DNA from: a virus
DNA length: 42,932 bases
IMG/VR virus record: IMGVR_UViG_3300017671_000007
Coordinates: 1 to 42,932 of that record
Strand: one strand, 5' to 3'
In this document: positions 37,076 to 42,932 of the stretch, piece after piece
Layout: the number at the start of each line of letters is the position of its first letter
Position numbering within the stretch: position 1 is the first letter of the stretch
Program-made: the position numbers and the translations under genes
Notes under the pieces: model-generated
What the model was told of the DNA's origin: nothing
Databases searched by the model: none
What the model saw: the letters and a program-made list of their open reading frames with translations, nothing else

Positions 37076-38398
37076 ATGCTCACGTTTTTCACATATGAAG
37101 CAACCATAAACGACATTCCTGCTATCTCATGCGGCGTTCTATTCGCCACGCCCTTCCAAGCGGAAATCGCGATGAGACGCGGCGGGCCTGTCGTCGATAT
37201 GACGAAAGATTATCGGTCGCCGTCAGGGGTGTGCGTCTACCGCCGCCGCGTCCGCCCCGCGACGTGGAGGGAGCGGGAGCAAGCCTTGTTCGACACTAAG
37301 GTCCACGACCACCCCGTATGGGAGGACGAGTCGTGGTGGACGGGCCGCTCGAAAAAGCTAATCGACCACTACGCGCACGAATCGCCGGACGACCCGTCGA
37401 TGATCGAGTTCACCGCGTCGGAAGCTCACGGCGAGACCGCCCGATACACCCCCATGAAGCCGGGGAAGTATCTTAAGAAGTTCTTCGGCGATGTCCTGTC
37501 GGACAAAAAGATCGCCTTCTATGCCGAGTGGTTCGCCACGGGCTCCAAGCCGCCTATCGATTATGAAGGCACCTTCGGCCTCGCCACGACAGGGTCCGAG
37601 ATTTGCGACGTATACGCGGCTGACATCCCCTCCTGCATGGAAGGCGAGGATAGCGTCCGGGTCTACGCGGCGGGCGATCTGGCGATTGCATACTGGAGGG
37701 ACCCGGACGGGGACTATTCCGCCCGAGCCCTGTGCTGGCCTGAGCGGCGAATCTACGGTCGCATCTACCCGGAACCCCGCGACGAAAATGCCGGGGCCGC
37801 CCTTCGCCAAGCGATGCAGCGCAAGGGGTGGAAGGATGAGAACGTGTCGGATGACGGATTCAACGGCGCTCGCATCCAAAAAATCGAGACGGCCGCCGGG
37901 TGGGTTATGCCCTTCATTGACCGCAACTACGGGGTAAACTGCGGCGGCGAGTTCTGGGTGATGTCATCTTACCCGGACTATTCCTGTGATAACACCGACG
38001 GCTACCTCCGGGACAGTCGTGCCCGGTGCTCCTGCTGTAGCAGCCTCGTCCATGAGGACGAAATAGCCTCTGTTGCCACCAGCTACTGTAGCCGTAACGC
38101 TTGGGCGACCGGTGACCGCCCATATTGCGACCACTGCGTCAGGGAATACACGTTCTTATGTAATCACACGCTAGAGCGGTTCGCCTACGATTTTGTCGAG
38201 GCGGTGTGTGTTGACGGCGAGATTTGGGCCGAGCCTGTCGCCCAACGTCAGGTCACCCTCGGTAACCTGTTCTGGGATGACGTGCGCGAGATTTATACCC
38301 GCGACGAACCCCGGTCGGACCCCAGCGACTACACCCTAGGCGCGACCATCCCCGCCGTGTCCTGTCCCTACACCCTGCCACTCCCTCTGGGGTCCTGA
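37076..38398 (+). CDS. 440-aa early protein with C-terminal cysteine-rich zinc-type module
   Basis: Largest early gene. Residues 1-250 are mixed alpha/beta without a known motif (e.g. RVYAAGDLAIAYWRDPDGDY then RIYGRIYPEPRDENAG). Around 318-365 there is a Cys cluster: ARCSCCSSLVHEDEIAS, SYCSRN, RPYCDHCVREYTFLCNH. This gives CxCC, a lone C, CxxC and CNH ligands suitable for a treble-clef or RING/ribbon-like zinc site. I recall similar uncharacterised proteins in other phages, but no function. The RBS is weak (GAGAGGA, 27 bases upstream of ATG). Takeover or anti-defence role is speculation from its early position. Confidence 0.72.
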   Translation: MLTFFTYEATINDIPAISCGVLFATPFQAEIAMRRGGPVVDMTKDYRSPSGVCVYRRRVRPATWREREQALFDTKVHDHPVWEDESWWTGRSKKLIDHYAHESPDDPSMIEFTASEAHGETARYTPMKPGKYLKKFFGDVLSDKKIAFYAEWFATGSKPPIDYEGTFGLATTGSEICDVYAADIPSCMEGEDSVRVYAAGDLAIAYWRDPDGDYSARALCWPERRIYGRIYPEPRDENAGAALRQAMQRKGWKDENVSDDGFNGARIQKIETAAGWVMPFIDRNYGVNCGGEFWVMSSYPDYSCDNTDGYLRDSRARCSCCSSLVHEDEIASVATSYCSRNAWATGDRPYCDHCVREYTFLCNHTLERFAYDFVEAVCVDGEIWAEPVAQRQVTLGNLFWDDVREIYTRDEPRSDPSDYTLGATIPAVSCPYTLPLPLGS

Positions 38399-38401
38399 CC
38401 T

Positions 38402-39418
38402 ATGACCATCACACAACGGCCTCCCCTCGAACGGGGGGAGGACACCCTTCTCGCCATGCTGACCTACCGGCGGCCCGCCTTTGGCCCGACAGAGGGGGCG
38501 TTCATTGAACGGTTCCTCTGGCCCCTACCGGGTATCCAGCAGGACACCTTCGGGAACCTCTGGCTGACCATCTCGAACGACGACGGGTCGGCTTGTCCGA
38601 TCCTCTGGTCATCGCACACCGACAGCGTCCACCGTCTGGAGGGCCGCCAAGAGCTGGAGGTCTGCCCCAAGACACGACAGGTGACCGTCGCGGACCCCGG
38701 CAAGGCGTCCAAGGGTCACTCCAACTGCCTCGGCGCGGACTGCGCCGCTGGCGTCTGGATCATGCGCGAGATGATCCTCGCAGGGGTTCCGGGGACCTAC
38801 GTCTTCCACCGGGATGAAGAGAGAGGTGGCGGGGGTTCCAACTGGGTCCTGTCCAACCACCCGGACTGGCTGACGCCCTTCAAGTTCGCCATCGCGTTCG
38901 ACCGCAAGGGCTACGGCGATGTCATCACGCATCAAGGCGGACGCACCGCGTCTGACGCCTTCGCCCGCTCCGTCGCGTCGATCCTTGGCGGGGCGTATCG
39001 GCCGGACCCGACGGGCTTGTTCACAGACACCGCCATCTACTCCGGTGTCATCCCCGAGTGTTCCAACCTGTCGGTCGGATACTTCGGTCAGCATGGCCCT
39101 GCCGAGATGCAGGACGTGCCCTTCCTGCTCGCCCTTCGGGACACCGTGGTCACTGCCGACTGGTCCCGACTGGTTTGCGAGCGAGACCCTTCCGCCCCGG
39201 ACCCTGAGGACGACCCGTGGCGCGGACTCGATCTGCTCCGGGATAGCCGCTGGGATGACGACATCACCGATCTGGGCTGGACGCCCCCACATGGGGTCGC
39301 CGGTTCCATCCACCGCTTCGTGGCGGACAACCCCGACGTGGTTGCCGACTTTCTGGAGACCAACGGAATCACCCGCGACGATCTGGAGGCCCACGCGGGG
39401 GGATGCACCTTCCAATGA
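38402..39418 (+). CDS. M20/M28-type zinc metallopeptidase-like protein
   Basis: 338 residues. A complete two-metal peptidase ligand set is visible in the right order: H72 and D74 in SSHTDSVH, bridging D113 in LGADCAAGVW, catalytic/ligand E139-E140 in HRDEERGGGG, D167 in AFDRKGYGDV, and H231 in GYFGQHGPAEMQD. Family members remove N-terminal residues or hydrolyse small amide substrates. No signal peptide, so it acts in the cytoplasm. It starts three bases after the Cys-rich gene's stop, suggesting joint expression early in infection. Substrate unknown; peptidase versus deacylase cannot be decided by eye. Confidence 0.75.
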   Translation: MTITQRPPLERGEDTLLAMLTYRRPAFGPTEGAFIERFLWPLPGIQQDTFGNLWLTISNDDGSACPILWSSHTDSVHRLEGRQELEVCPKTRQVTVADPGKASKGHSNCLGADCAAGVWIMREMILAGVPGTYVFHRDEERGGGGSNWVLSNHPDWLTPFKFAIAFDRKGYGDVITHQGGRTASDAFARSVASILGGAYRPDPTGLFTDTAIYSGVIPECSNLSVGYFGQHGPAEMQDVPFLLALRDTVVTADWSRLVCERDPSAPDPEDDPWRGLDLLRDSRWDDDITDLGWTPPHGVAGSIHRFVADNPDVVADFLETNGITRDDLEAHAGGCTFQ

Positions 39419-41203: not shown

Positions 41204-41328
41204 TGCAACGAGAGCCGACACCCCACTAAAGGGGGTTTCCATAGCTCTGAAAGTTCCGTAATAAAGTGAGACTAGGGTGACGACGCATCTTGAACATCGA
41301 CAATCCGAGGTTACCGAGGAGGGGGACC

Positions 41329-41751
41329 ATGAGATACCCAAAGAAATCTTACTCGCCATTCGACGGGCGAGGATCGAGCGCCTCGTCCATCCTGCCCGCG
41401 AGGTCGGCTGCCGACTTGAAAACAGTGGTTGCGGCCTTAAGCGTCCTAGCGACGGCGGGCCACGACCGGATGACGGTTCAGCAAGCGTTGTTCTTCTTAG
41501 CGGCCGCCTACCACGGCGTGATGGGGCAGAGCGCGACCGTCACCCGGATAAGGGAAATCTACCAGCCGCTGGGTCGGTCGGTCGAAAAGTCCAGTCTCCA
41601 GTTCTTGGCGCCGGGGCGCGTGGCTCCGGACGCGCTGGGGTGGCTTGAACAGCACCATGACCCCGACGACAGGCGCGTCCGCTACCTACACCTGACCGAA
41701 GACGGCGAGGACGTGGTCGCAGCCCTAGTGGAGGCGATGCGCTCGGCCTAA
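41329..41751 (+). CDS. winged-helix (MarR-like) transcriptional regulator, candidate lysogeny regulator
   Basis: 140 residues from ATG 41329, chosen for its strong AGGAGGGGG; a TTG 13 codons upstream lacks an RBS. DNA-binding pattern: VVAALSVLATAGHDRMTVQQ, ALFFLAAAYHGVMGQSATVT then RIREIYQPLGRSVEKSSLQF, and the wing WLEQHHDPDDRRVRYLHLTE followed by DGEDVVAALVEAM. The 'D-P-x-DRRV-x-x-LxLT-x-G' wing is the MarR hallmark. Directly upstream of int and after the early genes, so it is the best candidate for repressor or integrase control; there is no cI-type HTH elsewhere. Confidence 0.75.
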   Translation: MRYPKKSYSPFDGRGSSASSILPARSAADLKTVVAALSVLATAGHDRMTVQQALFFLAAAYHGVMGQSATVTRIREIYQPLGRSVEKSSLQFLAPGRVAPDALGWLEQHHDPDDRRVRYLHLTEDGEDVVAALVEAMRSA

Positions 41752-41801
41752 CCCGCCGGACGCACCTAACCCCCTACCCTACAACGACGAAAGGACGCCC
41801 C

Positions 41802-42932
41802 ATGCGTCTCTACCAGAAGCCCTCGGGCGTCTGGGCGGTGGACTATGTCTCGCCGTCCGGTGAACGCTGTCGGGTCTCTACCGGGACCAAGGACAAGACC
41901 GAGGCCCGCCGCAAGGTCGCCTCCATCATGGCCGGGGAACGCCCCGCCGCCGAGGCTAGGGCCTACTCGCCCCCTCCGTCCGCCTCGGCACCCCTCGGGG
42001 TCACCGTCTGCGCCCTACTCCGCCGCGTCGAGAACGCCCGCGAGGGCTGGGCCTTGTCGAAGTCCCAGGCGACGATCCGGTCCAACCTCAAGATCATGCG
42101 TGAGCTGGAGATTGACCTGCCGGACGGTCGCCGTGCCCCCTTCCGGGACATTCTGGTCACCGGCGTGACCAAGGGGGTCCTGCGGGGTCTCGTCCACGAG
42201 CTGGAGGCGCGCGGTTACGCGCCCGCCACGGTCAAGCGCAAGCTGGACATGGTCTCTAAGGCCCTGTCGCTGGCCGCCGAGTGGGACATCATCCCCGGCC
42301 GCCCGACCATGCCCAAGCTGGGCGGGGCGAAGAACACCCGGACGCGCGTCGTCTCGGAACGGGAGGAGGCCGCGATCTTCGACGCCATCGCCGCCCGTCA
42401 CGCGGCCAACCCGAGCGCTGACTGGGTCCGCTTCGGTCACCTCGTTGCGTTCCTGCTCGACACCGGGTGTCGCAAGGGCGAGGCCGAGAACCTACGCCGC
42501 GAGTGGATCACCGAGGTGAACGACCGACACCGCCTGACCGTCCCCGGCTGGGCTACCAAGAACGGCAAGCCCCGGACCATCCCGCTCACACCACGGGTCG
42601 TGGGCGCCCTACCCTACCTGGCCGCCAATGGCGTCGAGGCCGCCTCGCCGGCCCCGCGCGGTCTGCTCCTGTTCCCCTACCGGGGCGGGTTCATCTGGTA
42701 TCGGTGGCAAGGGATCGTCGCTGACCTCAAGGAGAAGGGCTTCGACCTGTCGGACGTGGTCATCCACTCCTTCCGACACACCACCCTGACGCGCCTGTCC
42801 GAGCGCGGCCTGCCTATCGAGAAGCTGGCCGACTGGGCGGGTCACGGGGACATCAAGGTGACCTGGGGAACCTATCGACACGCCGAGGCATCAAGCCTAG
42901 ATGTCGGCGCGGACCTGCTCACCTCTGGGTGA
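41802..42932 (+). CDS. int: tyrosine recombinase / phage integrase
   Basis: 376 residues, ATG after GAAAGGA. Integrates and excises the phage by site-specific recombination. The catalytic set is complete: R224 (DTGCRKGEAENL), K253 (ATKNGKPRTIPL), H322 and R325 (IHSFRHTTLTRL), H348 (WAGHGDIKV) and nucleophile Y358 (WGTYRHAEA). The N-terminus has the arm-binding-type strand region (MRLYQKPSGVWAVDYVSPSG) and the core-binding helices (LVHELEARGYAPATVKRKLD). The window ends at its TGA. No tRNA-like attP was found beside it; a site could lie at the map junction. Its place upstream of RNA polymerase matches known temperate T7-like phages. Confidence 0.94.
   Translation: MRLYQKPSGVWAVDYVSPSGERCRVSTGTKDKTEARRKVASIMAGERPAAEARAYSPPPSASAPLGVTVCALLRRVENAREGWALSKSQATIRSNLKIMRELEIDLPDGRRAPFRDILVTGVTKGVLRGLVHELEARGYAPATVKRKLDMVSKALSLAAEWDIIPGRPTMPKLGGAKNTRTRVVSEREEAAIFDAIAARHAANPSADWVRFGHLVAFLLDTGCRKGEAENLRREWITEVNDRHRLTVPGWATKNGKPRTIPLTPRVVGALPYLAANGVEAASPAPRGLLLFPYRGGFIWYRWQGIVADLKEKGFDLSDVVIHSFRHTTLTRLSERGLPIEKLADWAGHGDIKVTWGTYRHAEASSLDVGADLLTSG

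Follow-up and report, generated by a model that had tools for sequence, protein, structure and literature searches.

A predicted lid-less PepT-like metallopeptidase of a T7-like phage and the partner gene that accompanies it

We report that the metallopeptidase gene of a T7-like phage belongs to a conserved gene pair, in which a partner gene is in most cases positioned directly upstream of the peptidase gene. The DNA analysed here (in the following referred to as the window) is the whole stretch of 42,932 nucleotides of the IMG/VR virus record IMGVR_UViG_3300017671_000007. The preliminary description of this DNA had treated the peptidase as a lone enzyme and overlooked the upstream partner. 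We favour, at somewhat better than even chances, the explanation that the peptidase and its partner constitute a two-protein unit with predicted amide hydrolysis, in which binding or presentation of the substrate would fall to the partner; considered separately, a joint function of the two proteins is likely, and so is the predicted hydrolysis of an amide by the peptidase. As far as we have searched the literature, the near-constant pairing has apparently not been pointed out before, and with respect to the function of the peptidase family the same searches gave annotations only and no functional paper.

The peptidase gene and its predicted catalytic domain

The peptidase gene (phrog_4191) occupies positions 38402-39418 on the plus strand, starts with ATG and encodes 338 amino acids, with a predicted PepT-like catalytic domain (approximately residues 9-260) followed by a C-terminal tail. 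The coordinates of the open reading frame had been given exactly in the preliminary description and the frame proved to be real: the protein matches phrog_4191 'peptidase' with an E-value of 2.8e-71 (residues 14-287 on profile positions 6-272 of 342), and homologues on viral contigs are 41-59 % identical to it along most of the sequence. Pfam and NCBIfam gave nothing significant for the peptidase; the Pfam M20/M28/M42 models were below the curated cut-off and the sole Pfam row up to E 1 was DUF3572 (E 0.26). Using tblastn we detected matches in 382 phage records, the best being in Rhizobium phage Pasto (43 % identity over 96 %), where the gene is annotated "zinc peptidase", and in Bradyrhizobium phage BDU-MI-1, and others in podophages of Klebsiella, Pectobacterium, Vibrio and Shigella. 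The spread among phages is wide and patchy. Some depositors name the phage peptidase M28, and in large Bacillus phages there are genes with the annotation peptidase T; moreover, an uncultured phage genome of 735,411 bp (LR756501.1) has five places matching the peptidase. The Pasto 'zinc peptidase', KP34 gp11 and PhiM1_10 (phrog_4191) belong to the same family, from whose phrog_4191 members the present peptidase differs in sequence divergence only. A chance reading frame in GC-rich DNA was ruled out by the homologues and by catalytic residues that are invariant in 128 of 128 relatives. Judged by these sequence comparisons, the peptidase is a real and intact further member of an already annotated phage family.

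The AlphaFold model of the peptidase (67 sequences; pLDDT 88.3, with low confidence for residues 274-300) was searched with Foldseek, which returned PepT, M42 and DapE structures and in total 136 PDB matches at E ≤ 0.001. PepT-type tripeptidases ranked top in VIA-align (3rza, Z 24.6, 2.6 Å, 232 residues; 3gb0, Z 24.4) with other M20 and M42 enzymes close behind, where rows no more than one Z unit apart are to be read as ties; the Z-scores against M20, M42 and M28-like chains were between 19.8 and 24.6 over 211-236 residues. The M20/M28-type metallopeptidase fold that had been proposed from the sequence is thus borne out by the model, which matches PepT, M42 and M28-like chains, and the predicted fold is of the di-zinc peptidase type. 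Searching structures with the family profile gave 3gb0 (E 1.7e-8) and 3rza (E 3.3e-7), compared with E-values of at least 0.003 for the M42/M28 entries, while the hhalign signal against the single E. coli PepT or Iap sequences was too weak for use.

Compared with PepT of MEROPS M20B (3gb0, 3rza and E. coli PepT), the phage peptidase shares the fold of the catalytic domain and the order of the metal site at approximately 20 % identity across the aligned fold; unlike PepT, it has no lid/dimerisation domain between D167 and H231, it has a C-terminal helical tail, and its gene is tied to a partner gene. Specifically, D167 and H231 are separated by 64 residues vs 183 for D196-H379 in E. coli PepT, which therefore leaves no room for an M20 lid, and the alignment of 3rza with residues 9-257 of the model takes in 232 of its 373 residues. 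Hence, as judged from this spacing and the model alignment, the peptidase lacks the M20 lid/dimerisation domain that is inserted between these two ligands in PepT. The M42 tetrahedral aminopeptidases (PhTET1, 2wyr/2cf4) share the fold (Z 22.8-23.1, approximately 21 % identity over 220 residues) with a weaker profile match than PepT (2cf4, E 0.0029 vs 1.7e-8 for 3gb0). The M28 aminopeptidases (LapA, Vibrio AAP and Iap) share the fold and the EE motif, with profile E-values of 0.007 to 0.06, and the HxD motif of the phage peptidase is M20/M42-like, unlike that of M28. On the predicted structure, the peptidase is an M20/M28/M42-type (clan MH) catalytic domain that is nearest to PepT (M20B) and lid-less.

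In every one of 128 non-redundant relatives, H72, D74, D113, E139, E140, D167 and H231 are unchanged, as are G111, G117, G142, G145, R168, G205, T208, D209, E219, N222, G226 and E235, and Q178 and S184 are kept in all relatives but one. Profile alignment to E. coli PepT places H72/D74 at H78/D80, D113 at D140 and H231 at H379, and E139/E140 align with the corresponding two glutamates of PepT from Bacillus cereus (3gb0). On the plus strand of the window, the codons of H72-T73-D74 (38615-38623; SSHTDSV motif) would accordingly specify a metal-ligand His and an orienting Asp, the D113 codon (38738-38740; CLGAD motif) the counterpart of the bridging D140, the E139-E140 codons (38816-38821; DEERGG) the counterparts of the PepT catalytic base and metal-ligand Glu, and the H231 codon (39092-39094; SVGYFGQHGPAE) the counterpart of H379. 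D167 (38900-38902; AFDRKG), which is invariant and terminates a predicted beta strand, is presumed to be the third metal-ligand acid, i.e. the counterpart of PepT D196. In M20 enzymes, PepT D80 orients the His and E173 is the catalytic base; D74 corresponds to D80 and E139 to E173, and D74 and E139 are therefore not metal ligands. The residues that had been listed as ligands (H72, D74, D113, E139/E140, D167 and H231) are all in place and invariant, with the correction that two of them have other roles. We infer that the residues of the site cluster in space. None of the 128 members lacks any site residue, which excludes a decayed or regulatory pseudo-peptidase, and the constraint on the active site, as seen in the aligned sequences, argues for predicted catalysis.

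Linkage to the partner gene

The partner gene (37076-38398, plus strand) encodes 440 amino acids and ends three bases before the ATG of the peptidase gene. Its homologues directly upstream of peptidases form one connected BLAST family comprising 68 distinct sequences. On the basis of BLAST clustering, a partner homologue is located near the peptidase gene in 113 of 129 non-redundant loci, whereas the next most common neighbour, an integrase, is present in 19 of the 129; the median intergenic distance in this set is -2 nt (IQR -28 to +13). When the family profile was used, the partner was detected in 84 of 88 distinct viral loci ascertained through the peptidase, and for three of the four exceptions there was less than 1 kb of upstream sequence (1.5 kb for the fourth, L034). 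The partner is on the opposite strand and divergently transcribed in nine of these 88 loci, yet it is still near the peptidase, i.e. the link survives inversion. Bacterial genomes gave a similar picture with the partner in 35 of 42 loci, three of the seven exceptions beginning at a contig edge. Conversely, 73 of 79 loci ascertained through the partner (the profile for the viral-contig search was built from eight sequences) have the peptidase, and two of the six exceptions are contig edges. The peptidase, bacterial and partner searches share loci, which makes their counts interdependent; the contrast is large all the same.

Real partner-only cases are L153/L154 (the same match), L155 and L181, and in L136, Lullwater, a Caulobacter phage with a complete genome, the partner is present and the peptidase absent; the partner therefore has its own role. 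Two to three copies of the partner family are present beside a single peptidase in L063, L086, L088, L166 and L201, and L090 has two peptidases and two partners. With respect to described phages, Kpn13 (a KP34-like phage) has a profile match to the partner, and KP34 apparently has this pair as gp10-gp11, gp10 being assigned by position and its Kpn13 relative by profile.

The C-terminal helical tail of the peptidase (residues 303-331; 39308-39394, plus strand) is present in most partner-bearing relatives. Specifically, of 193 peptidases for which a partner was detected, 176 are matched by the tail profile, and in seven of the other 17 the sequence is cut off by a contig end. Neither tail nor partner was detected for seven peptidases, four of which are intact and have upstream sequence (L116, L118, L121 and L127); these are short bacterial forms of 258-286 amino acids from Methylococcaceae, Leptospiraceae and Flavobacterium contigs. 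Given that these four have no partner, the catalytic domain can stand alone. The partnerless forms are also distant relatives, and the correlation between tail and partner is therefore confounded by ancestry. Moreover, in one locus (L173:1720-2733; less clearly in L172:9409-10488) the peptidase tail has a Cys cluster similar to the partner's zinc ribbon, as though a domain had been transferred from one protein to the other; in L173 this Cys-rich stretch takes the place of the usual tail. Sequence patterns of this kind, i.e. the distribution of the tail and the L173 case, fit a contact between tail and partner, subject to the confounding by ancestry; gene adjacency alone is no proof of a physical interaction.

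The short partnerless bacterial forms, PepT being a tripeptidase and the nearest family, and the peptidase T-annotated genes in large Bacillus phages could also be accounted for by an exopeptidase that acts on its own, trimming short peptides from host protein degradation and thereby feeding phage protein synthesis, with the partner as a mere neighbour that has another job. A linkage to one partner amid differing neighbourhoods (113/129 vs 19/129), which is kept even when the partner is inverted, would not be expected for such a scavenging enzyme, and we consider this explanation unlikely.

Genome context and possible counter-defence

The window encodes a T7-type RNA polymerase (288-2732), SSB, primase/helicase, DNA polymerase, exonuclease, head-tail adaptor, head assembly and major head proteins, the terminase large subunit, a MarR-like regulator and a tyrosine integrase. 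The gene order in Pasto is terminal repeat, small genes, an ArdA-like gene, partner, peptidase, regulator, integrase and RNA polymerase. Partner, peptidase, regulator and integrase are at the right end of the window and the polymerase is at its left end, and the window can therefore be read as the Pasto arrangement in circularly permuted form. Thus, the peptidase has the same early position and the same upstream partner (profile match) in Pasto, and both phages have an integrase. The placement in the early region of a T7-like phage, as suggested in the preliminary description, agrees with the RNA polymerase and the Pasto gene order, the early region being at the end of a permuted contig; in terms of sequence, this location is supported by synteny. 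Scans for promoters and terminators were at chance level. The MarR-like regulator and the tyrosine integrase (41290-42932) belong to families that recur at 13 and 19 of the 129 loci, respectively, and mark a group of T7-like phages that are probably temperate.

The framing as a T7-like takeover gene does not generalise: a T7-type RNA polymerase was present in seven of 37 peptidase-bearing records tested, many of which are fragments. The peptidase-partner pair is therefore not tied to T7-like phages, and the same count is the evidence against a T7-specific takeover gene.

Another explanation assigns the pair to counter-defence: it would break down a defence signal or a toxin, either of them aminoacylated or peptidic, or would put a defence protein out of action. 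This differs from the two-protein unit that we favour solely in the target and otherwise overlaps with it. The early location, the wide and patchy spread among phages and, in Pasto, the ArdA-like antirestriction gene directly preceding the pair are in keeping with such a function, and in 11 of the 129 loci an RIIA-like gene is located approximately 38 nt downstream of the peptidase. RIIA-like lysis-inhibition genes are present in L012, L017, L020-L024, L028 and L041 (phages or prophages), and the four tested match phrog_612 with E 2.4e-83 or better; rIIAB counters the Rex exclusion system. Most of the 129 loci, on the other hand, have no recognisable anti-defence neighbour, and neither a PADLOC match nor an experimental report in the literature searched was found, so that we assign counter-defence a low probability. 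A component of a known defence system was rejected on the grounds that PADLOC gave no match.

The partner protein and the predicted two-protein unit

Invariant columns in the partner are S186-C187-M188, Y197, P279, D282 and C318, with further Cys residues at 321, 351 and 354. The S186-C187-M188 codons (37631-37639, plus strand) are positioned within a weakly GNAT-like stretch (residues 160-256), and C318, C321, C351 and C354 constitute a putative LIM-like zinc ribbon (38027-38137, plus strand); some members of the partner family show weak matches to LIM or zinc-ribbon Pfam models. For the model of the partner (pLDDT 86, pTM 0.61) the top matches to residues 160-256 are mostly of GNAT type (Foldseek E 0.019, prob 0.99), and the alignment with Eis2 gave Z 7.2 (92 aa, 2.9 Å), where a Z below 8 can be chance according to the note of the tool. 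Past strand 4 the partner consensus reads YGDxxxL, and no Q/RxxGxG/A CoA-binding motif is visible by inspection. BFVD searches with the partner returned uncharacterised proteins of KP34-like phages and of Lullwater. Weak BFVD rows hinting at a PcfJ-like relationship were discarded, no PcfJ being among the Pfam families listed. An amidoligase pathway, considered after a weak BFVD match to an annotated amidoligase, was likewise set aside; PF12224 was silent in 42 records, and so was the control, making this result uninformative.

M20 enzymes include N-deacylases, e.g. DapE and ArgE. That the partner transfers an acyl or aminoacyl group as a GNAT-like enzyme, and that this group is then removed or edited by the peptidase, as the GNAT-type matches (E 0.019; Z 7.2 to Eis2) and the matches of DapE and ArgE to the peptidase fold might suggest, is highly improbable given a Z-score in the range where chance can operate, YGDxxxL in place of a CoA-binding motif and the 42 records without an amidoligase (with the control also silent).

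According to the two-protein explanation that we prefer, the peptidase would be a cytoplasmic two-metal exopeptidase or N-acyl/aminoacyl amidohydrolase with a lid-less PepT-like M20B domain that is predicted to be active. The two proteins may bind each other, perhaps via the C-terminal tail of the peptidase, and the partner would use its SCM domain and zinc ribbon to bind or present the substrate, thereby supplying the specificity for which M20 enzymes have the lid. The target of the pair, early in the infection, would be a host peptide or else a small molecule that is acylated or aminoacylated. More tentatively, and with a probability that we set clearly below one half, the pair might represent an undescribed two-protein phage system across unrelated phages, consisting of a lid-less M20B enzyme and a dedicated SCM/zinc-ribbon subunit that chooses the substrate, possibly for counter-defence or host takeover.

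Taken by itself, the enzyme does not stand out from the other members of its annotated phage family, and it is the pairing that is informative. Through the pairing, the anonymous "putative peptidase" known from common podophages of Klebsiella, Pectobacterium and Vibrio becomes one half of a defined unit, and it means that the two proteins should be expressed together in experiments. Finally, the substrate of the pair would explain why phages of great diversity have retained the gene and left its catalytic site unchanged.
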